From: Stropharia rugosoannulata
Taxonomy: Eukaryota > Basidiomycota > Agaricomycetes > Agaricales > Strophariaceae
DNA length: 64,000 bases
Assembly (NCBI GenBank): GCA_028532985.1
Contig: JANCIK010000008.1
Location: forward strand, 3,348,001-3,412,000
Direction: 5' to 3'
Position 1 is the stretch's first letter. Each line of letters begins with the position of its first letter. The translations under genes and the position numbers were made by a program. Below, in pieces: positions 11,802 to 62,760 of this stretch. The notes under the pieces were generated by a model. The model was not told where the DNA came from, did not search any database, and worked only from the letters and a program-made list of their open reading frames with translations.

Positions 11802-11813
11802 GGTTATGAGCCC
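11802..11813 (+). promoter_or_regulatory. Primer-binding site for a 5'-half initiator tRNA-Met
   Basis: GGTTATGAGCCC follows the 5' LTR with no gap. It is complementary to the anticodon stem-loop of initiator tRNA-Met (GGGCUCAUAACC), not to a tRNA 3' end (no TGG start). Drosophila copia and relatives are primed by a tRNA-iMet half-molecule cleaved in the anticodon loop; the same mechanism is inferred here. Confidence 0.75.
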
Positions 11814-17474: not shown

Positions 17475-20151
17475 GTACCTGGGCCAGTGCATCCCACTCA
17501 GATTTGTCAAGCTCTGGAAGGTTCAACTGCTGGTTATTTTTACGGAGCACCCAGTCATCAATTTCCGATTGATACTCCAGGGCCCGTTCTTGAGTAATTT
17601 ATGAGTCATGATATAAGTCAATAGATAAAGACACTTACCGAGCATCTGATGGCATGATGACCAGCGTGTTCTAACATCGAGAATCAGTAATAAAGCCTTC
17701 CGCACACCATCGTCTGCTGTTATAGCGGACGCAGCCCCAGCAAGCTTCTGATCGTTCTTGATTGACTCCGAGACAAGGCTAAGCCATGACTCCTTGCGCT
17801 GCGGGCTTGAGCGAACAGCTCTAATTATTTTGCGTAACTACGAGGTTTTAGAAAAATAGACTCATTAACAATACTCAAATACTTACCTTATCAACGCTAG
17901 AGAAAGCAGCCCCAGTAGCATTAGCTGTATCAATGCCCACATTATCTTGCTCGTCTGTATCGTTTAGCCCAAGGGTAGTCACTTGGTCAATTTCAAGGGG
18001 CTCGGTTACTGACTCCTGGTATGTACCACTTCGAGAAGTTGCCTTTTTTGCTTCTACCGGAGAAAGTGCGCCAATCACTTCAAGTAACTAAGATAAATAT
18101 AAGCATCGACAAGATATTAGAGAATAAATTATAACCTTAATTGCAGCTAAGTGAATTGTATGCGGCATACACCGCAAGCGAGCCCATTTAGCATTAAATG
18201 CTACACCATGACTAATTAACCGACGCTGAAGTTCATCCACCATTGTGTCATTATTGGCCGCATTATCGAGCATAAATGCAAAAACCTGTTTCAAGATTAT
18301 GAGGTGTAGGTAGTGGCTAGTGGCAGGTACAATAACTTACTCGTTTTTCAATACCATAGCTGGTCAGGGTCGACCATACAACGTCGGCCATATTGTCACC
18401 TGAGTGCTCGCCAACTAGCTCTTGAAAGTCAATTAGAAGTTCTTCTAGATTGCTATATAAGCATGGCAATGTTGCATATGGATGAAGTACACTTACCTAG
18501 ATCCCCATTCTTGGTTACATAGTGCGCAACAATAGCAAGAAACGCATAGTTATTACTTGATGTCCACGCATCTAACGAAATGCTAATTTTGCTTGCAACA
18601 TTACTCTGCATAAGTATTCTCGTGTTAGTATATGAAGTATGAATAAAATATTCGAAGAACATGCCGCAAAGTACTCTTTAGTAGACTCAATAACATTGTC
18701 GCCCATTTTCAGGATACGGCGCCGGATAGAGTCTTTATGAGGAATTTTGAGCTCAGACGGGGCAGAATGATGAGTGTACATCATCATTTTCCGATACTCA
18801 GGTTTGTCGACTTCGTCAAATGGCTGGTCGCATGATACAATCCATTCAGCAATGAGATCTTCGAAGTACCGTTGATCCCACGGTTCCTTGTATGGACTAA
18901 TTAGAGACCGAAATGACATAAAGAGATGGAACGTACCTGGTTACGCATTGCTTGTTTTTCAAATGCTTCATGTAATGAACTCGCTGCTGCTTTTCCGAGC
19001 TCTTCAAAGTAGACTGCCTCCTCCACAGCAGTCAGTTTTACCCTACCAGCTGCAACCTCGGCTTCGTGTTCCGTGATAGGTTCCGTGATTTTACGAGCCT
19101 TTAAAACTAGATACAGGCGGTACATAGTAGGCGAGCACACTTTTAAATGGTTCACGAGATCTATAAAGCGCTTTAGACATATATGTATCTCGAGAGATAA
19201 CTGACATACTAGTGAAATTGGATTTCATGCTTTTAGTAACTGTGAAAACCTTGCGGTTTCCATGATAGCACTTGTAGTGACTATCCCTATACCACCAACC
19301 TCTCCGTTTCGACCATGCAGTACTTTCTCATAGAAGTAATGAATAGCATTCTTATGCACAGTTGGTAGGGCCTAGATGCATGTACATAACAGTTCAAACT
19401 TCAAAGAAAGGTACCAAAGACACTTACAGCCTTTGCTATTTTGTTGCTACCATTAGTCTTGTCGGCAGCAGTCATAGACTGGCTTATAATGGTGCCATGC
19501 GTTAAGGTGTCTGTATTACTCTTCTTTGCCTGGGATTTACGTTTACGCTTCCCTGATCCTCTTCCCGACTGCGGTAGAATTTTGGAAGGTAGAATATCGG
19601 CAAGCTTAGCACAAGTTCAGTATCACAATTTACGACATATATATATGTGGAGTCTGCACACACCTCGCTGTTAGATATATCTCGTTCATCCACGGCGTTA
19701 AACCCGCCACTATCAGACACTCCATTCTCCGATTCACTGCTGCTTTCCGACGCAGAAAAGTCATGATCCTCGACGTCCGACTGACTAGTTCCGAGGCGCC
19801 TTGATTGCGTCTTCCTACGTTTAGTAGCACGGCGTGTTGGAATACTACCAGATATCTTTTCTCCATCCGAGTCGCATTTTTCAGCGTCAAGAGCTTCAAG
19901 TAGACGGCTGCTGGATGTTCCAGAACGACGCACATGGCCTGTAACATGAGGAGTAGTACCTATTGAATAGAAGCATTGAGAACATGTTAGGTTAACTGTT
20001 AGTAAAGATGTTACGTGCCTGTTTGTGCTGGTCCCCCATCTCCTGACTTTTTGGATCCGATCGGAAGAAGATCAGACTCGGATTCATAGAATACAAGCTC
20101 AGAAGCCTCCTTGAGGTTGTTATTTGCATCTAGCACAGGTGTATCTGCCAT
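17475..20151 (-). pseudogene. hAT transposase gene, C-terminus truncated
   Basis: A minus-strand gene starting at ATG 20149-20151, with several short introns. Recognisable hAT landmarks in order: ISLDAWTSSNNYAFLAIVAHY (RNase H-fold start, first catalytic Asp region), FMLDNAANNDTMVDEL (second Asp region), RLRCMPHTIHLAAIKV, and ILDVRTRWSSCHQML. The N-terminal exons are Ser/acid/basic rich and would hold the DNA-binding part. The frame stops at the foldback border, before the C-terminal dimerisation segment, so the gene is dead here. I did not resolve every intron. Confidence 0.8.
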
Positions 20152-20763
20152 GCTGGAAAAGTAACAAAGTAAGAACCACGTTCAGAAAAATTGCATGCAA
20201 CATCATACCTTAATCATGCTCCATAGCTACTAGCCGCCACAAATTGTCCACTGATAAGCCAATCACACTTCATTATTGCGCAGATTTGACCGGATAGAAT
20301 TACTGCTATCGACTACAAGCAACTATACTAATGATATACTGCAAATGTTGAGCAGAAGAAAAGATGTAGTGTATATGCTGACTTACCACAATTGACCTTT
20401 CAACCGTAGCTTCAATCTCCTTGAACTCCATCCTTCTGTTGCTCCATACATGTCGGAATCTATACCCGAATGGCGGGCGCAGTGTGAGTCGATGCCAAGC
20501 AAGAATAAGACGCAATGAGATGATTGAGGAAACAACGTTGCATGTGGCAAGCATGTGGGATTGTTGATGGTCCCGTGATATTTCAAGTCCCGCTAGACGG
20601 CCGTAATACGGCCGTCGCAGTGCCGTGGTATCTGAAATTGACGGGCTGTAACCGTCCTGTTACCGTTGCCGTGTGCAGACTTACAAAACGTAAGACGGCA
20701 CGGCTACGGCAGCTGCAAACGGCCGTCCCGTCAACCGTCAAAACGGCTACGGTACGCAGCCCT
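17475..20763 (-). mobile_element. hAT-type DNA transposon, copy 1, 3' end lost
   Basis: The sequence is inserted in the copia pol region in the opposite orientation. Its intact terminus is at 20763 (plus-strand ...GTACGCAGCCCT, reading AGGGCTGCGTACC inward), with a subterminal zone of about 200 bp rich in GACGGCCGT/ACGGCC motifs. The other end is cut off at 17475 by the foldback element. A nearly identical partial copy (50107-52588) shares exactly the 20763 terminus, which supports that boundary. Confidence 0.8.
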
Positions 20764-22130
20764 ATGTTGCACAAGGCTTCTCTCAGGTACCCTTGGTCGA
20801 TTATGCTGATACCTTTGCACCAGTTGCCAAGTCCGTAAGTGTTCGCATCATCGCCGTCTATGCGATCTCCCAAGGCTGGCATCTTGACTGCTTCGATGCA
20901 ACAAGGGCTTTCCTTTGGGGTGATCTCTCTGAGGTCATCTACATGCGACGTCCTGCTGGCTTTGTGTCTACGTCATCATCTTCCACCTCCGTCTGGCGGT
21001 TGAAGAAGTCCTTGTATGGCCTTAAACAAGCCTCGCGTGTGTGGTATCTCCTTCTGCGTGAAGTTCTCCGTAAACTTGGCTTCACTCGCTCAGAGTTTGA
21101 TCACGTAGTCTTCATATACACGCACACTTGGAATCACATCAAGGTTCACTGCCTTCTCGCCATGCATGTTGACGATGGTATGGCCGGCTGCAACTCGCGT
21201 CCGTTTCTGACCTTCATCAAGGCTGAAATTGGTAAAGCCTTTGGAATCAAGGATCTTGGGCCTGTCAAATCCTTCCTCGGGGTACAGTTCGAACGTAATC
21301 TCGACACTTGTGAATTGTGGCTTCATCAACAAGCTTACATCGACGCTCTCCTCGAAGAATATGGCCTTACACGCTGCAACCCCGTCTCAACGCCTCTCGA
21401 TGCCGCTTTCCCTTTTGGTCGCGAAACTGATGTTCAACCTCATATTCCTAATCTCACTCATGCATTTCAGCGTCTCGTTGGTTCCTTACTCTTCTTGCAA
21501 CGTTACTCCAGACCAGATATTTCTGTTGCCGTTCTGCTTCTTTCACAACACTGTTCCAAACCGGAGCCACGTCACTTCGCAGCCGGGAAACGCCTTCTGC
21601 GCTACCTCGCGGGAACTCGTTCTCTTCGTCTGCATTATGGGGGCGTCGACAAGTCTGCTCCGCTCACTTGCTTCACTGATGCTGACTGGGCAGGCTGCAA
21701 AACCACTCGCGCATCCGTCTCTGGTTTTATCTGGTACATGTCAGGCGGCCCGATAAGTTGGTCTTCCAAATCTCAAACCTCCGTGTCCGTTTCATCCACC
21801 GAGTCTGAATACATTGCCATTACTCGAGGTGTTCAAGAAGGCCTGTGGCTTCACTCTTCTCTGAATCTTCTTCATATCGATTGTCCTTCCACTCTTTCCT
21901 TATTTACTGACAACGAGGGCGCTCGTTCTCTCTGCGAGAATGATTCTTCTCACAGTCGTGCAAAGCACATTGACATTCGCTATCATTTCGTACGTTCTCA
22001 CATTGAATCTCGTACTTTTCTCATTATACATACTCCTGGCATTTCCAATCCTGCTGACATTTTAACAAAACCACTTCATCGTTCCAAATTTTTAGACTCT
22101 GTTCCACGCCTCAGCCTCGTTATGCGTTGA
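20764..22130 (+). pseudogene. copia pol, 3' portion (reverse transcriptase and RNase H)
   Basis: The frame resumes right after the hAT terminus with YVAQGFSQVPLVDYADTF and runs to TGA 22128-22130. Motifs: DCFDATRAFLWGDL, MRRPAGF, YGLKQASRVWY, MHVDDGMAG (the catalytic pair of Asp), FTDADWAGC and STESEYIAI (RNase H), HIDIRYHFVRSHI, and the conserved ending NPADILTKPL. Compared with intact copia pol, the segment between the Ser/Pro linker and YVAQGFSQ (the start of RT) is missing, so DNA was deleted as well as inserted. Confidence 0.93.
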
Positions 22131-22137: not shown

Positions 22138-22516
22138 TGTTGAAGTAAATCGTTTGCCTTTATCGCTCTTTCCTTTATCGCTCTTTGCCTTCTAATTGCT
22201 GTCTCGCTTACGCACCTTCGTAGCGCCAGTCACGTCACTACGTATTCTCTGATACATTGCGCTCTGCGCACATGCTCACGATTCCCTTATCCGTTCAACG
22301 CATATCTTCGTACACACTATTTATCACTCACATTCACTTCACAGTCCCTCAGTCGTTCTTCTCAACGCTGAGGTGACTATTTCATTCATTCACGTACACA
22401 CTACGTACTAACTCGATTATCTAGTTCCAAGTACTTACGAGAAACTAGGTAATAAATACATTAGTCGTTCTTCTCAACGCTGAGTTCCAAGTACTTACGA
22501 GAAACTAGTTTTCACA
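22138..22516 (+). repeat. 3' LTR of copia element
   Basis: 379 bp, TG...CA, a near-exact copy of 11423-11801, followed by the second AGTCA at 22517-22521. Confidence 0.93.
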
Positions 22517-22521
22517 AGTCA

Positions 22522-24100
22522 TGTTTACAGGAACAACGCGTATGTAAGCCATCCTGCCCATTTGAGTCCACACACCTCAGCGGGCACGGATTGGCATGGA
22601 GTCAGTATCTCCCATCTTTGCTATCCGCGTGCAGCGTGTCTTGGAAGCTGTACGCCGTGGTTTGTACGTTATACGGCACGGTTTGGCCGGTCAGGCTTTC
22701 AGAACTCAACCTGGTTGGACAGTTATGATAATCTCTACCAATGGGGATATCTATGTCAAATGAGGTGTGGTTGTATTTTTAGAGACTGGTGTTCGCAGCC
22801 CGGCCAGCGTGTAACCCGGTTTACAAACGCGTACGAGTACGAAAGGTACGAGTACCATAAGCGTTCCCCATATCGACAGTGTTTGCTAGAAATACGTGTC
22901 TTTGACTACGACATAGTGTAACTCCAACCCTTTTCGGTGCACCGGGACCTCTAGCGCCTAGTGCGCGCGACTGGAGTCAATTTGGTGTATCCCATCCCCA
23001 TAGCTCTACAGTTTTTTCATCAACTTGATAGAAGTTACTACCGCTCATGATCAAGCCTCAAGGCTAGCCCTACATGCTCCCCGCTGTATTCCGTCCATCC
23101 GTCTGTCCGCTTGTATTGCTTCTCTTCCCGCATTTAAATCGCTTCTGCGCGCGCTGCCGTAGATATTGAATGCGGTCGTGTGCTGCATCGTGCGCAGCGC
23201 TCGGGTCCGATTTAACTGTATACATTGAGCTGAACACCTGATCATGAGTCGCTCAGGTCGTCCGAATTTCAAGGCAGAAGGTTAATTGGCAGCTACCTGG
23301 TGGTGCGTAGGGGAATTGAATATTGACAGTCCGTGTGGCCTGGTTGTCGTCATGCTGTGCTATTCGGTCTCCGTATCTGGACATGTTGAGTAGTCCGTTT
23401 TGGTGAAGTTCACTGGCAGTTGCCTTGTAAAGCCTCCGAACTCTCGGCATTTTTACAGCATGGAAGGATAGCAGTGAACTGATACTAGGGTAATATCTGG
23501 AAATTATAAAAGTATACCCGTTCCAGAGCTGTAATATTCAATGATAATCAACCGCTGAGCAGCGCGCATTGGGTATTCATATGTTCATGTAACGACCCAG
23601 TCTGATCGGGTATACGCTGAATAATTCTCATGCGCGCCCACAAATGATGCCCGCGCAGTTGGTTGGATTGGACCCACGCTAACGGTAGCTCAGCCCAATC
23701 AGGTAGTCTAGTTCGAATTTTCGCGCTCAAAACCCCTTCCATGTTCAACATGTCGATTTGGAAGCTCTGTATTTCTGGCCCCACCTACCGACCTGACATA
23801 CCTCTTTGTGGCCAGCATTGACGTTGTCACTGGCGACAACATACATATATCCTAGACATTCTCAGACACTGTTTGACAATAAGGACGTTCGCCTGCAACG
23901 TTTGGACCCTCCGTCTCGCAGCCGATATCCGTTCTGTGTGGCCTGTATCCAGAGGCCGGCTTCATTTACTTAAAAGCTAAGCTCACATAGAAGCTCGAGC
24001 TCCGCTACCTCCACCAAACACAGCCATAAAGCAACATACCTATTGTAGAAGACTCGTGCCTGAGGCCTGACCCTCCAGCTACCGAGCGCACAACACCGCC
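22522..24100. other. Intergenic, no supported gene
   Basis: Mixed-composition sequence between the copia element and the F-box gene. Short open frames exist on both strands but none has a family match, splice-supported extension or codon pattern that convinces me. The stretch 23690-23730 looks superficially tRNA-like but does not fold as one. Confidence 0.4.
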
Positions 24101-43965: not shown

Positions 43966-45064
43966 TATGGCGGTCCATGTGTACTTTTATTCCGCGCAAT
44001 TTTATGAGCCATATATTGCCCCGCAGAAATTTGAAGTGCCCCGCAGAAGTTGAAATTCCGCGCGCGCAGAAATGCAGTGTCTGAAATCTGCGCGGGGTGA
44101 GTTTTTCGAGTCAAATACACATTTTTTGTCCAAAAGCATGCATAGAAATGCCCGCGCGGAATTTTTACACTGCGCGCAGAAATTGAGAAATTGACTTGTA
44201 CTCACATTTTTGACGTGCCGACGTGCCGTAGCTGGGATTTGATAATGTAAGTGATGCAGTCGGCATAACGGATCTCACACATCGGACTCTGAAAAAGTGT
44301 GGGAAATTGGCCCCCTAGCAGCGAGTGGAGAGCCTATTATACAATTGTCATCCCCTCCTTATAGCTTAAAGCGAGATAATGTATATGATTAATAAATTAC
44401 TATGTACTTTCTCTGCAAAATGTGGTTTTTACGTTGGTTTAGTAAGAATAAAGATTGACATCCTTAGGTGAATTATTGCATTGGAATATAACCCGAAAAC
44501 AACCAATCAACGAGATGTTATACCTGACTTAGGTATATAATTCACACATTAAAGGATCTGGTACATCTTTGAAGTAACTAGAATGATTACAAGATTTCCA
44601 ATGGCAAGTAGACGGGCGCCATTAATGTTTACCTTACCCTTTCTTTGAAGTTTCCACGGTATTTCAAAGTCCGAAAAGCCAGGCTCCGTGATGCCGACAG
44701 CATCACTTACATCATCAAAACCCAGCTCCGGCACGTCGGCACACCAAATTGGTGAGCACAAGTCAATTTCTCAATTTCTGCGCGCGCAACACACACCTTG
44801 CATTAAATTTCTGCGCGCAGTGTAAAAATTCCGCGCGGGCATTTCTATGCATGCTTTTGGACAAAAAATGTGTATTTGACTCGAAAAACTCACCCCGCGC
44901 AGATTTCAGACACTGCATTTCTGCGCGCGCGGAATTTCAACTTCTGCGGGGCACTTCAAATTTCTGCGGGGCATTTAGAAATTCCGCGGGGCACTTAGAT
45001 ATTCTGCGGGGCAATATATGGTTTATAAAATTGCGCGGAATAAAAGTACACATGGACCGCCATA
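43966..45064. mobile_element. Non-autonomous TIR element A (TATGGCGGTCCATGTGTAC family)
   Basis: The termini TATGGCGGTCCATGTGTAC and their exact inverse bound about 1.1 kb. The TIRs continue inward for 250-300 bp with arrays of GCCCCGCAGAA, CCGCGCGC and CTGCGCGCAG motifs, then imperfect inner repeats (ACGTGCCGACGTGCCG / CGGCACGTCGGCA). There is no coding sequence inside. Flanks show only the TA itself as a possible duplication. It is about 95% like element B (54654-55792) by eye, lacking one 40-bp motif unit in the left arm. It abuts the truncated SDR copy. Confidence 0.85.
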
Positions 45065-45854: not shown

Positions 45855-48578
45855 CTACATAATCACACATTCCTTGTCGTCCGCCTTGACACCATGGATA
45901 CCCATGTCTGCGAACGTCTGCGGCTTTCGACCTCCCCCTGAGGCATGCACGTTGGGGTTCGGCGTTGCTGCTCCAGAAGTAGAATTCTGCACGGGCCGGG
46001 GCGTTGCCAGCGGCCCACCCGCGGTGGGGAGCGAAGAGACGGGCGGGTCGGTCAGCGAATACGATTTCATGTGCGCATGTGGCCCGGGAGCGCCCTGTGG
46101 GTGAGACGCGGACGCAGGCAGCGGTGGCGCGGAGTCGAGGTTGAGCCGCATCCGCTCGAGCCGTGTCAGCGTGGTCATCCCCGTGCTGCTGTCCGCGCCC
46201 GCGCCCATGCTGGATGCAGGCCCGGGACCAGCGCTGTTCGCGTGATGCGGCCTCCGGCCAGGGCTCGGTGGCCGCCCGCCCACCACACGCCCGGGGGAGG
46301 CCCGGCGTGGGCTGCCATTGCGCTGCGGGGAGGCCGTCCCGGATGTCGTGGCCGACACCTGCCCCTGCGATCCGCCGCGATGCGGGCTCTGCTCGCGCAG
46401 ACCAGGGAGCCGCGCCCCACCGGCGCCTGCTCCGGCGTACCCAGCCTGCGGAGGGCCGTTGCCAATCGGGAGCCCAGAGGCGGCGGCGTGGGCTTGCGCG
46501 AGTGAGTTCTTGCGGATCACGTCGATGCGCGGGTCTGCTGCCTGGTACTGCGCCTGCACCTGGGGCGGTGGACCGCCGGACGGGCGGCGGTGTTGCGGTG
46601 GCGGGGCCTGGAAGGGCTGGTATTGCGACTGCGACGCGGAGGGGGGGAGCGCGGCCTGGCGCTCTGCGAGCTCGCGGTGTGTCGGAAAGGTGCTCCCCTC
46701 CCAGGGCGGGGACAGGGGCTGCGTCTCGGCGCGCTGGGCGGCCAGCGTGCGCCTCCTGACGAGTTTGGTTTGCGTGATGCTATCGTGCTCAGCGCGCGCG
46801 AGAGGTTGGGGTGCCGGCTGAGAGAGAGCGGCAATTCGTGGCTTTGCGTCTGCGTTGCCATGTGCTTGTGCCTGGACAGAAAATCAGTAAGGGTGCACAA
46901 TGGGGAAAAGGAAGGCTGCGTACGCGCTGGTACCACTCCATCGCCTTATGGAGGTCTCGTGGCTGACCGACGCCCACCTCTGCATAGTACCCCATCGCAA
47001 ACTCAGCGCTGGGAAGTCCCTTCCGTGCCGCTTTCTCCGCAAAGGTGAGCGCGAGTGCTTCGTCCTTCTCAAATCCACCGCCCCCTGCCGGCCCTCCCGC
47101 CGGTGCAGCAGCCGCACCACCACTGCCACACAAAAACCACTTGGAGAGCGCCATGTCTGCCTCGACCTCACCCTGCTGACTGGCCAGAGAGTAGTACTGC
47201 ACGCTGAGTAGTGGATCGAAGACAAATGGCGGCTCCGCAAATTCGTATGCATGTCCGAGTTTATACTGCGCAGCACCGAAATGGAGATATGCTGCACGTT
47301 CGAGGTGCTTGCGTGCTTCGAGGGACGGGGACAAACCAGCCGGGATAAGAGGAACCAATAGCGATGGTGGAACGGTTATCTGGGTAAATTCGGCGAGAAG
47401 CAGAAGGGCGTAGACGTATGCTGGCTGTGGGCAGGATAGTGACGCGAGTAGGGCGGCGCGTTGGAGTAGAGGGAGAGCAGCACTGGGATTGGCTGGGAGA
47501 GAAAGTTGGCCGAGCAGATGAGCCATTCCAAGACGCTGTAGAATAATCAAAAAAGATGTCAAGTTGCATAAAATCAACGTACGTATAAACAGCTCTCGAC
47601 GTTCTGCTTTGCTCCGCGTTCAAAACACTCCTTCGCATGTACGTGGTCGTTGAAGTTCTCGTAGTCCCTCCCGAGGCGGAACCACGCTGCACTATGGCCT
47701 CCCCGCGCGGCAGCCTCAAAGTCCCTAAACGCAGTACGCGGGTTGTGCTTTATGAGATCAGGAAACGCGCCACTAGCCGCAAACGTGGCACGCATAGCTA
47801 CGGCCTCTGCAACGTGTGGTGGCATCTTGCCCTTTTCAGGAGCATGGGAGGCAGCAAGCTGAAGCACGACAGGAATTGCAGTATGCGCAAGGCGGTCAAG
47901 GGTGGGGTCTGCGAGGTTTAGTGGGCCCACTGGCGGGTCGGTCGCGCCCAGAGCACCAGTGGCGCGGTCGACGAGGAGAAAGACGTCGCGACACCAGGCA
48001 ATCTTGAGCGCTGGGTCGTGGCCCGGGCTGACGATATGTTGTGCAGCCTCCTGGAGCTGCGCAATGACCGGCAGGGACGCGGTAAGCGAGGGTATGGCGG
48101 ATGTAGACGATGCTGCTGATGATGTGGCTTGCGGTGGTGGTGGAGGGGCTGACGTATACTGGATGGATGGCTGGGGGATGGAAGTCATGGAGAGGTTTGC
48201 GATGGCCCTTGCTACATCGTCGTCGGACGGCGGTGGCTGGTTCCACTGAGCCGCCCAGGCCGGGGCGGATGCTGGCGCAGGCCCGTACCCAATCTGGACC
48301 TGATCGTCAAGAGTACGCGCCATCTACGCATCGTCAGCACATCCTCCACCCAGACTGGATGCACGCACGTTGGCTGGGATCGATCTGTCTGGTTTGTGCG
48401 GCCGGGGTGCAATCAGGGGGTTCTCGAAATGAGGAGGGGATTCGAGCTCGTAGATGCTCGGGGTGTTGTATCGCTCTGTCTGCAGCCTGAGATCCTGGGG
48501 GAGAGGAGGTAGTGGAGGAGGAGGAGGGACGTCAGAGTCGTTTATGGGTGGACGCGGTGGCAGCGGAGGAGCAGACAT
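45855..48578 (-). CDS. Sel1-repeat chitin synthase activator, Skt5/Chs4-like, with CVIM farnesylation box
   Basis: Four exons: complement(45855..46871, 46924..47535, 47583..48323, 48369..48578). Introns 45-52 bp, GT-AG, all phase 0; 859 residues. An ATG at 48590 is an alternative start four codons earlier. N-terminus: Pro-rich (PPPPPLPPLPQDLRLQTERYNTP). Middle: Sel1-like repeats (AWFRLGRDYENFNDHVHAKE, RLGMAHLLGQL, AQYKLGHAYEF, DMALSKWFLCGS, AEFAMGYYAEVGVGQPRDL, AMEWYQRAQAHGNADA). C-terminus: long disordered Ser/Pro/Gly/Arg region ending KECVIM, a CaaX box. In yeast, Skt5/Chs4 activates chitin synthase III and is membrane-attached by farnesylation of a C-terminal CVIM; the architecture matches. 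It probably acts at the plasma membrane in cell-wall synthesis. A Gly/Ala/Pro insertion (GGAAAAPAGGPAGGGG) interrupts one Sel1 unit. Confidence 0.9.
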
Positions 48579-50106: not shown

Positions 50107-52588
50107 AACCTGTTTCAAGATTATGAGGTGTAGGTAGTGGCTAGTGGCAGGTACAATAACTTACTCGTTTTTCAATACCATAGCTGGTCAGGGTCGACCA
50201 TACAACGTCGGCCATATTGTCACCTGAGTGCTCGCCAACTAGCTCTTGAAAGTCAATTAGAAGTTCTTCTAGATTGCTATATAAGCATGGCAATGTTGCA
50301 TATGGATGAAGTACACTTACCTAGATCCCCATTCTTGGTTACATAGTGCGCAACAATAGCAAGAAACGCATAGTTATTACTTGATGTCCACGCATCTAAC
50401 GAAATGCTAATTTTGCTTGCAACATTACTCTGCATAAGTATTCTCGTGTTAGTATATGAAGTATGAATAAAATATTCGAAGAACATGCCGCAAAGTACTC
50501 TTTAGTAGACTCAATAACATTGTCGCCCATTTTCAGGATACGGCGCCGGATAGAGTCTTTATGAGGAATTTTGAGCTCAGACGGGGCAGAATGATGAGTG
50601 TACATCATCATTTTCCGATACTCAGGTTTGTCGACTTCGTCAAATGGCTGGTCGCATGATACAATCCATTCAGCAATGAGATCTTCGAAGTACCGTTGAT
50701 CCCACGGTTCCTTGTATGGACTAATTAGAGACCGAAATGACATAAAGAGATGGAACGTACCTGGTTACGCATTGCTTGTTTTTCAAATGCTTCATGTAAT
50801 GAACTCGCTGCTGCTTTTCCGAGCTCTTCAAAGTAGACTGCCTCCTCCACAGCAGTCAGTTTTACCCTACCAGCTGCAACCTCGGCTTCGTGTTCCGTGA
50901 TAGGTTCCGTGATTTTACGAGCCTTTAAAACTAGATACAGGCGGTACATAGTAGGCGAGCACACTTTTAAATGGTTCACGAGATCTATAAAGCGCTTTAG
51001 ACATATATGTATCTCGAGAGATAACTGACATACTAGTGAAATTGGATTTCATGCTTTTAGTAACTGTGAAAACCTTGCGGTTTCCATGATAGCACTTGTA
51101 GTGACTATCCCCTATACCACCAACCTCTCCGTTTCGACCATGCAGTACTTTCTCATAGAAGTAATGAATAGCATTCTTATGCACAGTTGGTAGGGCCTAG
51201 ATGCATGTACATAACAGTTCAAACTTCAAAGAAAGGTACCAAAGACACTTACAGCCTTTGCTATTTTGTTGCTACCATTAGTCTTGTCGGCAGCAGTCAT
51301 AGACTGGCTTATAATGGTGCCATGCGTTAAGGTGTCTGTATTACTCTTCTTTGCCTGGGATTTACGTTTACGCTTCCCTGATCCTCTTCCCGACTGCGGT
51401 AGAATTTTGGAAGGTAGAATATCGGCAAGCTTAGCACAAGTTCAGTATCACAATTTACGACATATATATATGTGGAGTCTGCACACACCTCGCTGTTAGA
51501 TATATCTCGTTCATCCACGGCGTTAAACCCGCCACTATCAGACACTCCATTCTCCGATTCACTGCTGCTTTCCGATGCAGAAAAGTCATGATCCTCGACG
51601 TCCGACTGACTAGTTCCGAGGCGCCTTGATTGCGTCTTCCTACGTTTAGTAGCACGGCGTGTTGGAATACTACCAGATATCTTTTCTCCATCCGAGTCGC
51701 ATTTTTCAGCGTCAAGAGCTTCAAGTAGACGGCTGCTGGATGTTCCAGAACGACGCACATGGCCTGTAACATGAGGAGTAGTACCTATTGAATAGAAGCA
51801 TTGAGAACATGTTAGGTTAACTGTTAGTAAAGATGTTACGTGCCTGTTTGTGCTGGTCCCCCATCTCCTGACTTTTTGGATCCGATCGGAAGAAGATCAG
51901 ACTCGGATTCATAGAATACAAGCTCAGAAGCCTCCTTGAGGTTGTTATTTGCATCTAGCACAGGTGTATCTGCCATGCTGGAAAAGTAACAAAGTAAGAA
52001 CCACGTTCAGAAAAATTGCATGCAACATCATACCTTAATCATGCTCCATAGCTACTAGCCGCCACAAATTGTCCACTGATAAGCCAATCACACTTCATTA
52101 TTGCGCAGATTTGACCGGATAGAATTACTGCTATCGACTACAAGCAACTATACTAATGATATACTGCAAATGTTGAGCAGAAGAAAAGATGTAGTGTATA
52201 TGCTGACTTACCACAATTGACCTTTCAACCGTAGCTTCAATCTCCTTGAACTCCATCCTTCTGTTGCTCCATACATGTCGGAATCTATACCCGAATGGCG
52301 GGCGCAGTGTGAGTCGATGCCAAGCAAGAATAAGACGCAATGAGATGATTGAGGAAACAACGTTGCATGTGGCAAGCATGTGGGATTGTTGATGGTCCCG
52401 TGATATTTCAAGTCCCGCTAGACGGCCGTAATACGGCCGTCGCAGTGCCGTGGTATCTGAAATTGACGGGCTGTAACCGTCCTGTTACCGTTGCCGTGTG
52501 CAGACTTACAAAACGTAAGACGGCACGGCTACGGCAGCTGCAAACGGCCGTCCCGTCAACCGTCAAAACGGCTACGGTACGCAGCCCT
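50107..52588 (-). mobile_element. hAT-type transposon fragment, copy 2
   Basis: Nearly identical over its full length to 18283-20763, including the terminus ...GTACGCAGCCCT and the subterminal ACGGCC motifs. Only a few substitutions and one 1-bp insertion are seen (CTATCCCTATACC vs CTATCCCCTATACC, at about 51110). It lacks everything corresponding to 17475-18282, so the catalytic and dimerisation end is gone. It contains the N-terminal and first catalytic parts of the transposase gene (start ATG at 51974-51976). With the second terminus lost it cannot move as such. Confidence 0.85.
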
Positions 52589-53274
52589 AGCTGCTCTCGA
52601 GTTTACATGAAGCGCGTCAGCAACAACGCCAAAGACACGGAGTGAAGTCGAGGTATGATCATAGAGTATATCTCTAGATGTCCTTTTTTATTTCATGAGC
52701 CCACATAAAGTTCTGAAAAAATGTTTCCTCCCAGTTTGACATTCCTAGTGGTTGTAGCTCAGCCATCGGACTGAATTTGAATACATACTTTACGCTCAAT
52801 GGAATGGTATGACATGGTATAAATATTTACATGCAGAGAAAAATTGCTCTGAATACTAATGAAAATGAGTATGAGAATCTTGGCAGGTCAAAGTTGACCT
52901 TCAAAACTTTCGCCTACGCTTCAAATGCCCCAAGTTTGTCTGGGGACACAAAATGTCCCAAAATACTCTCGCGGAATATTTTCTCGCATGGACTGCCGTA
53001 GGGCTTCCTTATCCACGTCAATATGCATATTGAAGTCATCGGTGGTTCCACACAACTACCCCTTATATGGCAAATTGCTGACATACTGTCTAGATTGTGT
53101 TCTGCAGTGTATATAGAAACTATCAAAATTATGATAAACACAACCGGTGCAATATTGAGTTTGACAAGACTCTACTACGGGTATAGTGCGTAGGAATATG
53201 GCAATGAATTAACTATACAAATCTTTTGGGCCTCAAAGAAGCCTATAGAACATCACCTCCAAACACTTGTTTAC
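52589..53274. other. Intergenic; right part duplicated at 62280-62490
   Basis: No gene was seen. From about 53100 the sequence (AAGACTCTACTAC, GTGCGTAGGAATATGGCAAT) matches 62285 onward, marking the outer end of a locus duplication. Confidence 0.5.
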
Positions 53275-54441
53275 TCAAGGCAACACAATTTATGTCTCGC
53301 AGGGTGGCACCAGCTCTCGAATCTACTTCGTATCAGTCCACTCTGTCCCTGACAGTAGAAGTTCTGTGCCGTCGTTGATTCCAAGGAGTCTGGCGCTATG
53401 GGCCCTCCCATTAGCTACGTAAGTTAAACAAAATCATGTTAGTACATGATAAAAGGGATGCGTGGAATCACTTGCGAATGAACTTGATTGGTGTATCAAG
53501 AGGATATCAGACCATGTCACCCAAATCACAAAATAGACAGAACGCACATAGCCTGTTATAACGGGGCCATTGATGCCACTGAAGTAGAAAACAATGCGGT
53601 CATTAGTATAGCTGACATGGGTACCGTCGCCTATATGTTGTAAGCTGGAGTAGTAGAAGTTACCCTTGATGTCTGTATGATCCACGTCGTTGTTAGGCTA
53701 GCTTGTGAATAGACAAAATTTATAGGTGCATACTTGGAATACCAGCCGCTTTCAAAGTAGAGTCATCGGTGACCATAGTTCCTATCTTCTGAATATTTCG
53801 GGAGATATCTAGGGTCACAGAACGATTATTTTCATCTTTTTTGACGTAGGCCTCCACGTGGCGCTCAGTAGAGGATGTCCTCCACTTGCCCAAGTGTTTG
53901 TACATAACCATTCCCGCTACGGAAACAATTTTAAACTACTCAAGACAAAATAAATAAGATGATGACAGTTTGAGATTTAATAAAGCGCTTACATAGTCAT
54001 CGGCAAGAAACTGTTGATTCAATAGATGGGACGCTGTTACTGTGAATTTTCTCAGTAAGAAACAAGGTATCACACCTCAGCAAGAACTGTGTCGTCAAGA
54101 TAAAATTTGACCCATGCGATAAGTTGCCCGTTTTTTGGATTTGTTGTGCCTCCTGATACATAGCCATTAGCAGTCTTGACTGTGACAAGGTCGTCGTAAT
54201 AGAAGAAACCAGTTGCATCTTGACAAAATTCATGTAACAGATGAGCAGATATCCTGTCGCAGGTCGATGGAAACATACCTTGCCCAATAAATGAATGGTC
54301 GCAAAATTCCATCCTTAGTTCGGGGAGCACGACTCGCAAGCCATGTTTATATCCTAGTAAGGAGGAGTGAAAAAATAGCGCGCCCGCAGAGGTCTGATGC
54401 TTGTATTTTACGAGGTATTCTGCATATATGCTACGATTCAT
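53275..54441 (-). CDS. Unrecognised multi-exon gene
   Basis: A minus-strand gene starting ATG 54441. Splice-consistent exons give a continuous protein: MNRSIYAEYLVKYKHQTSAG ... HSFIGQ, then DATGFFYYDDLVTVKTANGY ... DDTVLAE, a micro-exon FLADDY, FKIVSVAGMVMYKHLGKW ... DDSTLKAAGIP, then NIKGNFYYSSLQHIGDGTHV ... INGPVITGY. A last exon ending near 53275 (APDSLESTTAQNFY ... KLCCLE) is possible, because its frame is partly conserved in the 62.5-kb duplicate. I do not recognise the family. The protein looks beta-rich with many aromatic residues, without a signal peptide or membrane segment. TIR element B sits about 200 bp upstream, inside the likely promoter. Confidence 0.55.
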
Positions 54442-54653: not shown

Positions 54654-55792
54654 TATGGCGGTCCATGTGTACTTTTATTCCGCGCAATTTTATGAGCCAT
54701 ATATTGCCCCGCAGAATATATAAGTGCCCCGCGGAATTTCTAGATGCCCCGCAGAAATTTGAAGTGCCCCGCAGAAGTTGAAATTCCGCGCGCGCAGAAA
54801 TGCAGTGTCTGAAATCTGCGCGGGGTGAGTTTTTCGAGTCAAATACATGTTTTTTGTCCAAAAGCATGCATAGAAATGCCTGCGCGGAATTTTTACACTG
54901 CGCGCAGAAATTGAGAAATTGACTTGTACTCACATTTTCGACGTGCCGACGTGCCGTGGCCAAGATTTGATGATGTAAGTGATGCGGTCGGCATAACGGA
55001 TCTCACACATCGGACTCTGAAACATCGTGGGAAATTGGCCTCCTAGCAGGGAGTGGAGAGCCTATTATACAATTGTCAACCCCTCCTTATAGCTTAAAGC
55101 GAGCTAATGTATATGATTAATAAATTACTATGTACTTTCTCTGCAAAATGTGGTTTTTACCTTTGTTTAGTAAGAGTAAAGATTGACATCCTTAGGTGAA
55201 TTATTGCATTGGAATATAACCCAAAAACAACCAATCAACCAGATGTTATACCTGACTTAGGTAGATAATTCACACGTCAAAGGATCTGGTACATCTTTGA
55301 AGTAACCAGAATGATTACAAGATTCTTAATGGCAAGTAGACGGGCGCCATTAATGTTTACCTTACCCTTGCTTTGAAGTTTCCACGGTATTTCAAAGTCC
55401 GAAAAGCCAGGCTCCGTGATGCCGACAGCATCACTTACATCATCAAAACCCAGCTCCGGCACGTCGGCACACCAAATTGGTGAGCACAAGTCAATTTCTC
55501 AATTTCTGCGCGCGCAACAGACACTTTGCATTAAATTTCTGCGCGCAGTGTAAAAAATCCGCGCGGGCATTTCTATGCATACTTCTGGACAAAAAACGTG
55601 CATTTGACTCAAAAAACTCACCCCGCGCAGATTTCAGACACCGTATTTCTGCGCGCGCGGGATTTCAACTTCTGCGGGGCACTTCAAATTTCTGCGGGGC
55701 ATTTAGAAATTCCGCGGGGCACTTATATATTCTGCGGGGCAATATATGGCTCATAAAACTGCGCGGAATAAAAGTACACATGGACCGCCATA
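54654..55792. mobile_element. Non-autonomous TIR element B (TATGGCGGTCCATGTGTAC family)
   Basis: The same termini, motif arrays and interior as element A, 1139 bp. The left arm has one more motif unit (GTGCCCCGCGGAATTTCTAG), explaining the 40-bp length difference. No coding capacity. TA is the only repeated flank. It lies upstream of the unrecognised gene at 53275-54441, in the same orientation as element A. Confidence 0.87.
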
Positions 55793-56307: not shown

Positions 56308-56313
56308 CATACG
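56308..56313. repeat. Direct repeat CATACG at left edge of large element
   Basis: CATACG precedes TATGGCGG here and follows ...CACCATA at 62255-62260. This is a candidate 6-bp target duplication. Confidence 0.65.
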
Positions 56314-56838
56314 TATGGCGGTCCATGTGAGGAAATATTCCGCGCGAATATTATCTAAGATCTGGACTGCGCGAGAGTTTTCACATGTCTGCGCGGAAAT
56401 ACTTGTCTTGCGCGAAAGTTTTGGGATGTGCGCGAAAGTTTTGAGATGTGCGCGAAAGTTTTGAAACATGCGCGAAAGTTTTGAGATGTGCGCGGAAAAT
56501 CTTAAAATGTGCGCAAATGAATTGTTAGGTATGATTACCTGCGCGGAATAAGTTATCTCACTGCGCGGAAACTTTTGCCACTTGCGCGAAAGTTTTGAGC
56601 ATCTGCGCGGAAATGAAAAGAATGTGCTCCCACGGCCTTGCCGGGCAGCCGGGCATGCCAAGCATACATAGCCGTAGAGCCGTCGGAGGTTCAAAATAAA
56701 ATCGGGACGCGGCATCACGCACGGCATCCGTGTGAACCACAGTTCACACGGGCCCCAACCAAGGTGCTACAGCAATAAACGTCGAATTATATTGTTTTAA
56801 AGGAATGTAGGTTATTTAAACGAATGTATGAGGTATTA
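56314..56838 (+). repeat. Left TIR with subterminal motif array
   Basis: About 12 copies of TGCGCG(A/G)AA-type motifs at roughly 20-bp spacing between 56338 and 56610, then a unique inner part with a perfect hairpin (CCGTGTGAACCACAGTTCACACGG at 56728-56751). It ends near TTAAACGAATGTATGAGGTA. Confidence 0.88.
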
Positions 56839-56853
56839 AAATGAAGCCCGTGA

Positions 56854-57921
56854 TTACACTAAAGCTGCACGAACGCTATGTAACAAAGTATTGACCATGT
56901 TGTGCTCTGTCCAGATATGCCCGCACTCATCACGAAGCCATTTAAGAATAAACTGCTTACATGATGGATTCATGCCTATATGATCGATTTTCTCCAACAG
57001 TCCGACAATTTGGCGTAAAGGTAGTGGTGATGTAGGATGATGGATCTTCCTTACGACAACACGAAACCAGTGCTCTGTCCAAATATCCAAGCACTTCACA
57101 TGCTGAGTCTCTTTGCAGTACTCGGCACCATCCCAGTTTCTCGGTATTGGAGGGTAGTTGGCAAGTTGCATACGCTGAGTACTTATTGCCTCCTTTCCCG
57201 CAGCAATAATAGCGAAGACACGGTACCCCATGTTCTCGAGATCTGCCTGGGAAAAATCCTAAAATATGCATCAGCTCATGTTAGAGGCGAACCAAGGTCG
57301 ATTTACTTACTTGTAAGCGCTGCAGAATAAGCTCCGATATGGCGGGAGAAATCCAGCTTTCCAAGTCGTAATGCTGAGCAAGGTAGAGGCGACGGGCAGC
57401 AGTAGGAGGCGGTTTGAGTTTCAAAAGCTCGTTGCTGGCAAAGGTTATTCCCGGAGAAATATCCCACATGTGACAGACATGAAGAATATCCAGGAGCTGC
57501 TGTTTGTGCTCAGTCTCCAACGGAGACCATGAGCTAAGCTTATTTTAGTAAATTATTTGTTTTAATATATTAGAACTTACTCATGATTAATCCATGCACA
57601 AAAATTTGCGAAAGCATCTGCGGTACAGCCTTGAATACGTATAGGATTTAATGCGGATCCTTCACCATTGACTCCAAGTACTCCGTTAGTTCCAACAAGC
57701 ATATCACGGAGAAATTTGGAGTGTCTGGTCAGGCGCATAGAGTCTATACGAAAAGCACGCTTCCCGACCTGGACAAGACACACAGAATGCCAAGTGTGAG
57801 AATGTGAGAATAAAAATAAACAAAATTCACACACTCTAAAGGACACTATCGAAATGTCATTTTCGTGACCGGGGTCATAGACAAAGTCACCATCGGAGTT
57901 AGGCAACATGTCTTGGTCCAT
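56854..57921 (-). CDS. BTB/POZ domain protein carried inside the transposon
   Basis: Four exons: complement(56854..57258, 57311..57533, 57581..57768, 57835..57921). Introns 47-66 bp, GT-AG, frames match; 300 residues. The BTB fold is visible: GDFVYDPGHENDISIVSFRV, GKRAFRIDSMRLTRHSKFLRD, MLVGTNGVLG, DAFANFCAWIN, then helical segments (LLDILHVCHMWDI, LYLAQHYDLESW). This is the common Agaricomycete BTB type, where a structured C-terminal part follows the domain. BTB domains dimerise and bind cullin-3; a regulatory or adaptor role is inferred. The stop codon lies just inside the left TIR border, so the gene belongs to the element. It may be captured host cargo or a native component. Confidence 0.82.
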
Positions 57922-58200
57922 GAGATTAAGCAGTGAAGTCAAACAGTTATTGGAACAGTACAGTAGATAGAGGATGCCGGAGCAACTGCTCTGAGGATCG
58001 AACACAAGACAACCCCCTTTAAATATACACGGAAGAAGTGTGATTGCAGTATCTAATAATAAACCAAGGTAGAGCATGCCCGGTGAGGTCGATGCTTCCA
58101 GTATTTCGGTACAGATTGCTTCTACTGTGCACCGAGTATCGACAGGGAAGAGAGATAGATATAAACATGTTTTTCATTTTCCTTCTTATTCCTTTCGATC

Positions 58201-60258
58201 ATGAACTTTTCATCATTGCCACAACGCACGGAGCCATGGTCAACATCTATAATCGATTCCTACCAGCGCTTAAGCCAGATATATGACACCACTGTGTGGT
58301 ACCTGAATGCAGGGAACTTTGAAGGTCATCGCTTACAACAATACGGAAATTCAATAATCAAGGATGCATATCCGATACTCCTGCTTCTATCGGAAGCGTC
58401 ACCAAGGGAGGGCTTACCAATGGAGTGGGTTGATAATGCTGCCGAAGAGTTCACGGGCCTGCTGGAGCTTGTTGATGATCATTGGATTGCACTGTCTAAT
58501 GAGTACGTCATGACATTTTTTACATAGTGTATGTTGAATTTGTATGTGCACAACAGAACATCCACTCGTGTTTCCTTTCTGCAGCCTGTTCACCAGAGAA
58601 GGACTGGAAAACGTGGGCGTCCTCGAAAGCAGATTGATTCGGAGATCCTTCACAATGCCTTTGAGAATGATCGGCGTATTCCTGTTAATGTTCTTGCTGG
58701 AATATTAGGGGTTGATCGCAAAACACTTCGTTCTAGAATAAATGAACTTGGAATCGACACCGGCTACAGCTCTATTAGTGATGAAGAACTTGATCAATTA
58801 ATTGAACAATATCGTCAGGAACATCCAAGCGGTGGCCGGTCATATATTATTGGACAGCTGCGTTCTTCACATTCATTAAAAATTCAAAGACAGAGAGTCA
58901 TCGACTCAATGAATCGGTTAGACAGGCTTGGCCAAGCTTTGCACAAACGTGTAGGGAAGAAAAAGGAAAGGAAGCGCTATGAAGTGCCGCGTCCCAATGC
59001 GCTGTGGCATATTGACGGCCATCACAAGCTGATTACGTGGGGGATTGTCATACATGGCATTGCCGATGGCTACTCTCGTAAAGTATGTCTTGATATGCAT
59101 GGCTTCAAGGATCTCTTATGTAAAGATATTGCGTACATTTTAGATTACTGGACTTCGAGCCAGTACGGACAACACCGCTGCAACAGTTCTTGATCTATTC
59201 ATTGATGCCATCACTGATCACGGTGTGCCACTTCGTGTTAGAGGAGACAGAGGAGGAGAGAACAGAGATGTATCAATTTTAATGATCTTACTTCGTGGAC
59301 TTAACAAGGCCAGTTTTCTATGGGGATCGTCAGTATTCAATACCCGTATTGAGCGGCTATGGGTAGAGGCTGGGAAGAGATTTGTACGTCAATGGAGGGC
59401 ATTCTTTATTCGCTTAGAACAGCAACATCTGTTTGACCGTCACAATGCACATCACCGATGGTTGCTTCAATACCTCTTCCTTGACAGTATTAATGAAGAC
59501 TGCGAAGCATTCTCAAATGAATGGAACTCTCATCCGATCTCTGGCGTTGGTGGTGGATATTCACCCAATGTGACGTATATCTGCTATTTATATTACATTT
59601 CATTAATTATTAATTAGGATCTCGTTTTTATGGGCGAATTAAAGCATGGAATATATGATGATGAGTGCGATGGACTTTTAGAAGAGGAAGTCAACGCATT
59701 CTTTGGCTTTACACCAGATGGATTACCTTTGGATACACCCGACTTCGACCTGTCTGACACCGACAGTGAAATTGATAACAATGAAATCAAAGCCGCTTCC
59801 TCATCACGAAATGATGACGAGAATGAGGTCACTAGCCCTTATTCAGATGTACAGCAACATGACGACATTAATTTTAATTTTAATACTCAGGTAAGCATTG
59901 GGTATTTAATGCAGAAGTGGGATTAAACCTTTGTACATGTACTCAGGTTGTAGACAAAAATATTCGACATGATGCTGTACCCGTGCCACCTGGTTCGTCA
60001 CCTTTTGATGCAGACACACTGTCCATTTTCGAGCAGGGTCTTTTGTTGCTTCTGGATGATGATGAAGTGCCGCCAGGATATGGCGCAACCGAGGGAGAGT
60101 TAGGCAATGAGGGGTTCAATGAAACACAAGAAATTTCTATAGGCCTCAGACGGCATGGCCATCACATTGTTTTACCTACTTCGATTTGGAAGCCTAGGGT
60201 GGTCTTGTGGGCAAAGGGTCTGTGCACCATGTCGCATGTACTTGCAGCGCAAAGATAG
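58201..60258 (+). CDS. RNase-H-fold integrase/transposase (HIDG...RGD...RIE type)
   Basis: Five exons, 58201..58502, 58557..59082, 59144..59569, 59618..59890, 59947..60258. Introns 48-61 bp, GT-AG, all phases match; 612 residues. N-terminal helical region of about 110 residues, then a helix-turn-helix-like segment (RIPVNVLAGILGVDRKTLRS, residues ~135-155). The catalytic core is PNALWHIDGHHKLITWGIVI (first Asp ~254), DHGVPLRVRGDRGGENRDV (second Asp ~310) and VFNTRIERLW (Glu ~345), with 34 residues between the second Asp and the Glu. A C-terminal domain with GELKHGIYDDECDG and ISIGLRRHGHHIVLP follows. From memory, HIDGxHKL-type integrases are widespread in basidiomycetes and some animals, usually annotated only as 'integrase core'. 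It is the likely transposase of this element. Confidence 0.88.
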
Positions 60259-60346
60259 ATATATTTTTCGTATTTATTCTGGGTTTGGATAGAGAGGACG
60301 AGACATACATTTCCTTGCTTTCCGAAATTCATCTCTGGTGTTCTCA

Positions 60347-61663
60347 ATGGCTACTCATTTCTCGAAAGGAAAGGGAAGACGACTTCGCAGTCCGTCAAGC
60401 TCTTCCGCATCAGAGGGATGTGGTGACAACTCTGACAACGAGCGACCATCCAAGCGTGCACGGCAGGAGTCACCCGAGCGGGTTCAGTCCGCAATGATGT
60501 CGAGGATGGCCACCCGGTCTGCATCCCGTGGATTGGCTGGCCTTAAATCACTTGTCAGTAGCTCCAGCTTATCCGCCGCTCGCTCAGAGACCGTCCGTGG
60601 GACACAGTCTGGGGCTGCTTCACGCTCTGCATCACGGCGTGTGGCCCCAAAGTACACGGCTACAAAAAGCGTGAGCTTTCTTTTCATATACTTTAAATGA
60701 CATACATTCTTATATTTATTTTGTTACAGGAAGAGCGCATTCTTGTTGGGACTATTGTCTTCTTAATAGTCGGTGTTACAGTTGTACGTCTGAGTCATTC
60801 TACAATAAATACTTACTCACAATTCTATTAGAATGACATGAACAACGCCAGCAGCTCAAAATCGAAATCTTTTGTCCCTATATACAAACTGTCGTCGAAA
60901 GTCGATATTTCTGTTCTTGGGCTCATGGGCCTGAAACAAGCCGGTTTGTGTGCTATGAGGAACACCGGCTTTGAGTTTCTTGAGAGCGATACATACACTA
61001 CCCTTTCTGAAAAGCTTGCCGACATTTTTCCTAGGGTCTTCAACTGGTTTTCGGAGTCTGGCAGTGCCTCTGAAGCGGAGGGGTCATGGCTTGTGTGTTG
61101 CAAGCCTCCTCGCACTAAACTTGCCGTTTTCTCAGACCACACCTCATTACCGACGGGGTTTGACATTATGACTGCTTGTCAAATGGCGACCAGTAAGTCA
61201 GGGATAGCCAATAGAATATTGTATCTTGGTAAGTTACATAGCATTCTTTGAGATATGAATTACTTCTGACAAAGCTTGTAGTCTCTTGCACACCTGTTCC
61301 GGATAATGTTGTTGCGCAGTGGAAGCCGAGTCTTGCATCTCCTGTAACTGATTCCAACCAAGAATTAGATACAAGTACACCAGCATCGAGTGTCGCCATT
61401 CCCACGGCCATGCAACAGGCACCTTATACGCAGCTATCTTATTCAATCCATGGTTCCAGCTCCGAAGTTGAACAGGATGTACTTAATGCATTGGGTGAGT
61501 CTAACCTACTTGTTTATTTATGCATCAGTTAACTGACTTTTGCGCAGATTCAGACACTGAAGGACAGGCCAAGAAGCCCGATGTGACATTCAGCAGCATT
61601 GCACAGCGAGTTACTACCAAGGCTATGGCCCAATTCAGTGATGATGAAAACCCATGGGTTTAA
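60347..61663 (+). CDS. Second protein of the transposon, family unknown
   Basis: Five exons, 60347..60670, 60730..60783, 60832..61228, 61282..61494, 61548..61663. Introns 48-59 bp, GT-AG, frames match; 367 residues. The N-terminal ~110 residues are Ser/Arg-rich and disordered (HFSKGKGRRLRSPSSSSASE, KRARQESPER; nuclear-targeting-like). A hydrophobic stretch ILVGTIVFLIVGVTV follows. Then comes a compact domain: VPIYKLSSKVDISVLGLMG, FEFLESDTYTTLSEKLADIF, RVFNWFSES, SWLVCCKPPRTKLAVF. The tail is acidic and Ser/Thr-rich, ending DDENPWV. No family is recognised. It starts 88 bp after the integrase stop on the same strand and ends 90 bp before the right TIR, so it is an integral part of the element, perhaps an accessory DNA-binding or regulatory factor. 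Confidence 0.78.
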
Positions 61664-61752
61664 TACCTTCGTAGTTTCTCGCAGTTTGTGACCTCTTTTT
61701 CAGTCTGCTTACACAATACCGACCTCATAAGATACACTACACGCTCATTTAC

Positions 61753-62254
61753 TACCTCATACATTCGTTTAAATAACCTACATTCCTTTAAAACAATATA
61801 ATTCGACGTTTATTGCTGTAGCACCTTGGTTGGGGCCCGTGTGAACTGTGGTTCACACGGATGCCGTGCGTGATGCCGCGTCCCGATTTTATTTTGAACC
61901 TCCGACGGCTCTACGGCTATGTATGCTTGGCATGCCCGGCTGCCCGGCAAGGCCGTGGGAGCACATTCTTTTCATTTCCGCGCAGATGCTCAAAACTTTC
62001 GCGCAAGTGGCAAAAGTTTCCGCGCAGTGAGATAACTTATTCCGCGCAGGTAATCATACCTAACAATTTATCCGCGCACACCTTATGAATTTCCGCGCAG
62101 AGTTTAAAACTTCTGCGCACATCTCAAAACTTTCGCGCATGTTTCAAAACTTTCGCGCAAGACAAGTATTTCCGCGCAGACATGTGAAAACTCTCGCGCA
62201 GCCCAAATTTGGGATAATATTCGCGCGGAATATTTCCTCACATGGACCACCATA
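61753..62254 (-). repeat. Right TIR with subterminal motif array
   Basis: Reverse complement of the left TIR, ending ...GACCACCATA. The inner ~230 bp match almost base for base. The outer array (62020-62220) has fewer and rearranged motif units, and one terminal mismatch (GGTGG vs GGCGG). CATACG follows at 62255-62260. Confidence 0.88.
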
Positions 62255-62279
62255 CATACGCTTCGCCTGGATTATGTCC

Positions 62280-62760
62280 TGTAGCGTATGTAAAAATACT
62301 ATGAACACATCCGGTGAAATAGTGTGTTTCACAAGACTCTACTACTAGGGACATAATGTGTAGGAATATTGCAATAGATTAACGCTACAAATATTTTGGG
62401 CCACACACTGGAAGCCCGTAGAACATCATCTCGGAGTCAATACACTTGTTTACTAAAGGCAACACGAGTTATTCCTCGAAGAGTCGCGCAGCTCACAGAT
62501 TTCTATCGTTAAGATTAAAGTGTCTGGCGCTATGATGATGGGCCTTCCCATTAGCTACGTAAGTTGAACAAAAACATGTTCAGTATCTGAAAAAGGATGT
62601 GTCAAGTCACTTGCGAATAAGCTTGATTGGTGTATCAAGAGGATATCATACCAATATCTGATGCTTGTATTTTGAGAGGTACTCTGCATATATCCTATGG
62701 TTCTGTTCTAGGATTATCACGCATCCCACGGTACATATTTTGATCCAAGGTTCTTTTAGG
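62280..62760. repeat. Degraded duplicate of the 53-56 kb locus
   Basis: 62285-62660 matches 53100-53520 (3' side of the unrecognised gene). 62655-62700 matches the start-codon end of that gene (54390-54441: TCTGATGCTTGTATTTT). 62706-62760 matches 56060-56112. The gene body is deleted between these pieces, leaving a scar of a former paralogue. Confidence 0.65.

Follow-up and report, generated by a model that had tools for sequence, protein, structure and literature searches.

Does the integrase gene in a 64,000-bp stretch of the Stropharia rugosoannulata genome (contig JANCIK010000008.1, positions 3,348,001 to 3,412,000; this whole stretch is the window) belong to a mobile element, and of which class? 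The gene lies with two further genes, called here gene 1 and gene 3, between long terminal inverted repeats (TIRs). At a probability of about 90%, we consider this unit to be a complete, autonomous-type IS3EU (IS3EU/GingerRoot) DNA transposon, from a three-gene lineage of mushroom-forming fungi.

Boundaries, copies and class of the element

The unit spans positions 56314-62254 (5,941 bp) and is exact to the base, with TATGG beginning at 56314 and CCATA ending at 62254. Its termini, TATGGCGG..CCACCATA in the window, are of the TA..TA type, and the 6-bp direct repeat CATACG abuts it on both sides. The TIRs are complementary over 412-nt arms (95%) and 171-nt arms (89%), which join into a single match of 532 columns at 92.3%. 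The inner ~310 columns of this alignment are identical, while substitutions and a 20-column gap are confined to the outer ~220. This difference suggests that the inner part was corrected or that the repeat array has turned over. The repeated motif, TGCGCG[GA]A, occurs ten times in the left TIR, nine times in the right TIR, nowhere in the element interior and seven times elsewhere in the window, whereas a first-order model predicts 0.02 occurrences per 540 bp. After intron removal, with splice sites picked by eye, all three genes have open frames without internal stops (300, 612 and 367 amino acids (aa)). The original prediction, one coherent bounded transposon of 5,941 bp with ~0.5-kb TIRs, a flanking 6-bp repeat, an intact integrase and two more genes, is thus borne out.

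The ends of the element are proven by copies in its own genome. We searched the source assembly (48 Mb, 20 contigs) with a 19-base end pattern, TATGGYKGTCCATGTGAGG, which occurs 40 times (19 forward, 21 reverse); the reversed control occurs 0 times, and a chance origin of the pattern is excluded. These 40 ends comprise 19 pairs, namely the window element and 18 non-autonomous copies, and two unpaired ends. Seventeen of the copies measure about 1.0-1.1 kb and one 2.48 kb. Because the copies were chosen by end sequence, the target site duplications (TSDs), and not the shared ends, are the independent test. Exact TSDs flush with TATGG..CCATA flank 15 of the 18 copies, with a length of 6 bp in ten and 7 bp in five; L050 and L064 have a right flank in common and are therefore not independent. 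Copies ending at other positions had been named beforehand as evidence against the boundaries. Instead, the end-pattern count and the flush TSDs of the copies in this genome rule out wrong boundaries.

A comparison of 16 of the 18 copies gave 81-99.7% likeness in alignments longer than 800 bp. Their outermost ~40 bases match the window element at 92-100%, in some copies ~125 bases match at ~80%, and the subterminal repeats are common to both. Since the likeness to the large element lies just in the ends and subterminal repeats, we infer from these that the window integrase may mobilise the ~1-kb copies. Copies L051 and L056 are 97.9% alike and both have exact TSDs; such ends have therefore moved fairly recently, by the action of this or a related integrase.

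Two further inverted-repeat units of ~1.1 kb lie in the window at 43966-45064 and 54654-55792 (95.7% identical over 1,048 bp), one of them 521 bp from the element. Their first 16 bases, TATGGCGGTCCATGTG, are as in the element, after which they diverge, and neither has a target duplication.

The integrase matches the Pfam family rva_4 at E=3.9e-60. The catalytic residues of the spliced protein are D254, D311 and E346, with 34 residues from the second D to the E. No cysteine was seen by eye ahead of D254, which leaves no HHCC motif, and D254 falls within 100-300 residues of the N-terminus. A structural prediction of the catalytic core, proposed as a check with the original prediction, is available through a homologue, P0003, whose model has an RNase H-like DDE integrase fold. 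On this model, the fold would be common to retroviral integrases, TnsB, MuA and IstA, with sequence identities of 8-19% in the rows compared. A PDB sequence search with the integrase returned no chain at E<=1, and viral contigs searched with exon 3 yielded no relative. A protein database search gave 316 matches, of which 120 were listed; among these, the fungal relatives carry just "integrase core domain" or hypothetical annotation. The integrase tree was built from 31 of the 120 (hand-picked for spread, database homologues only) with the window and the family B described below, and alignment A2 from 26 of the 120.

IS3EU has been in Repbase since 2013, and its complete families always have TA..TA termini and usually a 6-bp TSD (PMC10045372; here and below, statements from cited papers refer to the parts of them that we consulted). 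Its transposase is an integrase-like DDE protein that has no HHCC motif and has its first catalytic D 100-300 residues in (PMC10045372). The window element has all of these features, with D254 as the first D, in a placement made by published description. The element class is therefore already known, if little studied; IS3EU has also been counted in two Agaricomycete genome papers (PMC8955403, PMC12411881). Here the original prediction did not hold, as it took HIDGxHKL integrases to be known only as orphans and expected this element to define their mobile unit. An integrase class with no known mobile unit is ruled out by the published IS3EU elements (PMC10045372, PMC12730594). Two other classes were likewise excluded. 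IS481EU elements end in TNT or TGT and have TSDs of about 4, 15 or 25 bp, and Ginger1 and Ginger2 have TSDs of 4 or 5 bp, with HHCC in Ginger1 (PMC10045372). The 6-bp TSD of the window element rules out both, together with its TATGG termini for IS481EU and its missing HHCC for Ginger1.

Genes 1 and 3 and a second family

Gene 3 follows the integrase. Its matches to DUF3464 (E 0.097 with the whole protein, 0.011 with exon 1 alone) lie below the cut-off and were set aside. It recurs as a fused tail in eight of ten integrase models, the ten being every model longer than 800 aa in the list of 120 (from 316 matches). The tails were detected by an iterated hidden Markov model (HMM) in rounds 1 and 2, at a threshold of E<1e-3, the E-values being scaled to a nominal 100 sequences. 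Round 0 recovered five of the ten tails as well as one ordinary integrase model (P0065, 8.3e-4), and in round 2 the value for another ordinary model, P0009, was 2.2e-6. Two of the eight tails (P0075, P0080) are near copies, P0059 and P0088 remained below the threshold, and the lowest of 50 shuffled control tails scored 0.48. The fused models come from Agrocybe, Psilocybe, Lanmaoa, Coprinellus, Favolaschia and Marasmius. By eye, several tails end near an NPW-like motif, like gene 3, and some contain a small C- and H-rich stretch that is missing from it. Within the S. rugosoannulata genome, two further gene 3 relatives lie downstream of integrases, both on contig C7 (E 3e-6 and 6e-6). A search of this genome with the Agrocybe-type tail found just the three gene 3 loci already known, and the Lanmaoa-type tail had no match in it. 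Judged from these sequence comparisons, gene 3 most likely assists or regulates the integrase and is not a chance passenger.

Gene 1 lies upstream of the integrase in divergent orientation. A relative on contig C11 is likewise divergent from an integrase N-terminus, a second on C11 has no integrase within the stretch examined, and a weak one on C7 (E=6e-4) lies upstream of a decayed integrase. Its Pfam match to BTB (E=0.027) scores 15.1 bits, below the curated cut-off of 20.5, and three relatives that were scanned had no BTB match. A PDB profile search, using a profile of four sequences, gave Skp1 rows at E=0.1 to 1.2. The best rows of that search, better than those for Skp1, were four for fusicoccadiene synthase (best E=0.0013, profile positions 184-253), a likeness that we set aside as chance on judgement and not on a test. 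BTB proteins are linked to cullin-3. Gene 1 may act as a BTB/POZ-type adaptor towards host factors.

A second family, family B, with copies on contigs C2 and C8, has these three genes in an unchanged order and orientation. Its two copies show 98.7% identity over 4.84 kb and 98.2% over 1.49 kb; their ends are TATGGTTGCCC, and their TIRs exceed 700 bp at 99.6-100% identity. Compared with the window element, gene 1 is 31-32% and gene 3 34-35% identical, and four integrase intron positions are apparently common to both families (read-through alignment, by eye). Between the two families, divergence is highest at third codon positions in each of the three genes (0.65, 0.62 and 0.65, versus 0.29-0.53 at the other two positions; 519, 79 and 162 codons), in a comparison that leans to conserved stretches because it was restricted to good tblastn alignments. 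This is the pattern expected of proteins under selection.

The family B copy on C2 is flanked by a 7-bp duplication, AACCATG, and its joined flanks align over the insertion point, with small gaps, to an unoccupied site in the window at 74%. Segments of the right flank of the window element (62292-62494 and 62538-62653) resemble window 53125-53316 and 53398-53514 (78-87%), next to the match of the C2 flank. It seems that the two elements inserted next to members of a single repeated gene or repeat family. The C8 copy is centred in an inverted repeat (C8:326700-334500; L031, L072, L081, L082, L083) that is identical over the 709 bp examined outside the TIRs and is either a fold-back duplication or an assembly error.

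Genes 1 and 3 could instead be unrelated passengers, or recently captured host genes with no role in transposition, carried by an IS3EU transposon. Such a history would suit their few relatives in the protein database, one for gene 1 and two for gene 3 (in the latter search a length limit kept out fused models), and fungal transposons do pick up genes such as TET/JBP (PMC12730594). Both genes, however, recur in family B at 31-35% identity, in the same order and orientation and with third codon positions most diverged, and models from six other genera place gene 3 after the integrase. We therefore regard the passenger explanation as unlikely, though it deserves to be kept in mind.

In the likely mechanism, the integrase would attach by its N-terminal helical region to the TGCGCG[GA]A arrays of the TIRs, pair the two ends and cut outside the TA. 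The ends would then be joined to the target, itself cut with a stagger of 6 bp or sometimes 7 bp, and repair would yield the TSD. Gene 3 would most simply be a second transposition protein, and gene 1 a possible BTB/POZ-type adaptor, its domain call being weak. A bolder proposal is that mushroom IS3EU elements are multi-protein transposons whose integrase has an obligate partner in gene 3, a gene that is old within the Agaricomycetes. Gene 1, in the slot of the alpha-kinase of rust fungi, would be a BTB/POZ-fold adaptor that directs a host pathway, such as a cullin-3 ubiquitin ligase, against silencing or repair factors of the host. We rate this whole proposal as improbable.

Activity of the element and its surroundings

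Several observations weigh against reading the unit as a complete, autonomous-type IS3EU transposon of a three-gene lineage, in addition to its placement by description and the faint BTB and Skp1 matches of gene 1. Only one full-length copy of its family was found in the assembly search, in which only the best candidates were scored, and its TIRs differ by ~8%; neither points to recent movement of this copy. No empty site was found in the part of its own genome that was covered, where a search with the flanks matched only both flanks and window 53125-53281 (78%, right flank). Among the 18 non-autonomous copies, five have TSDs of 7 bp, one matches at five of six bases and two have none. The C8 copy of family B has no duplication, and its two flanks, compared over 709 bp, repeat each other in inverted orientation; this copy is therefore rearranged or misassembled. 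A putative DNA-binding role for the integrase N-terminus comes from its helices in the model of P0003 and from matches to helix-turn-helix and AT-hook families that lie below the cut-off (E 0.02-0.2). The model of the gene 3 core is unusable, with a predicted local distance difference test (pLDDT) score of 44.8, too poor to search, and for this reason we claim no fold for gene 3.

The single full-length copy and the ~8% difference between the TIRs would also be expected of a domesticated or dead element, in which the host has kept the integrase genes and the TIRs are relics. All three frames are intact, however, and L051 and L056, with their 97.9% likeness, related ends and exact TSDs, argue against it. 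We find this explanation hard to accept.

Table 1. Positions of the element, its genes and a related unoccupied site in the window.
Feature	Position	Strand	Exons or basis
Unoccupied paralogous counterpart of the C2 family B insertion site, 74% identical	53307..54168	+	flank alignment
Left TSD, CATACG	56308..56313	.	flanking letters
Left TIR, starts TATGGCGGTCCATG, 10 TGCGCG[GA]A subterminal repeats	56314..56844	+	
Gene 1, 300 aa, weakly BTB/POZ-like	56854..57921	-	57835-57921, 57581-57768, 57311-57533, 56854-57258
Integrase/transposase, 612 aa, Pfam rva_4 PF24764, D254 D311 E346	58201..60258	+	58201-58502, 58557-59082, 59144-59569, 59618-59890, 59947-60258
Gene 3, 367 aa, protein recurrently associated with IS3EU, no Pfam match above the cut-off	60347..61663	+	60347-60670, 60730-60783, 60832-61228, 61282-61494, 61548-61663
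Right TIR, end ..CATGGACCACCATA, 9 TGCGCG[GA]A repeats on minus strand	61745..62254	-	
Right TSD, CATACG	62255..62260	.	flanking letters

The window contains other repeats. A 2.48-kb direct repeat (18283-20764 and 50107-52589) is 99.9% identical with its copies 32 kb apart, and an inverted repeat (14784-15860 and 16393-17474) has 1.08-kb arms at 99% identity. A 386-bp direct repeat (11423-11808 and 22138-22523; 99% identity) has a spacing, 10.7 kb, that would suit a pair of long terminal repeats. Repeats of 70-73% identity at 4006-5455 are offset by multiples of about 135 bp. The G+C content reaches 70% at 46001-47000, compared with about 40-50% in most of the window.

Relation to described transposons

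Among the closest described elements are the TET+ IS3EU elements of Pucciniales and Tuber indicum, which share with the window element the 6-bp TSD and a second gene opposite to the transposase (PMC12730594). The ends TAYGG..CCRTA, stated for the rust-fungus (Pucciniales) elements, are also common to both (PMC12730594). In TET+ IS3EU, the gene opposite to the transposase encodes an alpha-kinase and a TET/JBP gene lies between the two (PMC12730594), whereas the window element has gene 1 in the opposite slot and gene 3 on the other side of the integrase. Genes 1 and 3 had no alpha-kinase or TET/JBP match in Pfam up to E=10. Compared by description, the window element thus differs from published IS3EU in its weakly BTB-like gene, its gene 3 and its ~0.5-kb TIRs with TGCGCG[GA]A arrays. 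That the integrase and its element stand apart from IS3EU is very improbable: the long TIRs, the share of 7-bp TSDs and two genes that go unmentioned in the consulted parts of the IS3EU papers (PMC10045372, PMC12730594) would favour it, but the termini, the usual TSD length, the missing HHCC and the position of the first catalytic D fit published IS3EU.

PIF/Harbinger elements differ from the window element in transposase family and TSD, and gene 3 has no Pfam match over the cut-off. They may offer a working analogy only: their mobility needs a second element-encoded protein beside the transposase (PMC2836001).

The gene content, with genes 1 and 3 beside the integrase, may be new. We recognised no paper describing an IS3EU element with a BTB-like gene or gene 3 in the consulted parts of the open-access literature, a search that left out Repbase, supplements and subscription journals. 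Fungal genes annotated as "integrase core domain" or hypothetical are now tied to a named superfamily, with tested ends and matching non-autonomous copies. Considering that one accessory protein accompanies this integrase in several Agaricomycete genera, what IS3EU needs beyond its transposase becomes testable.
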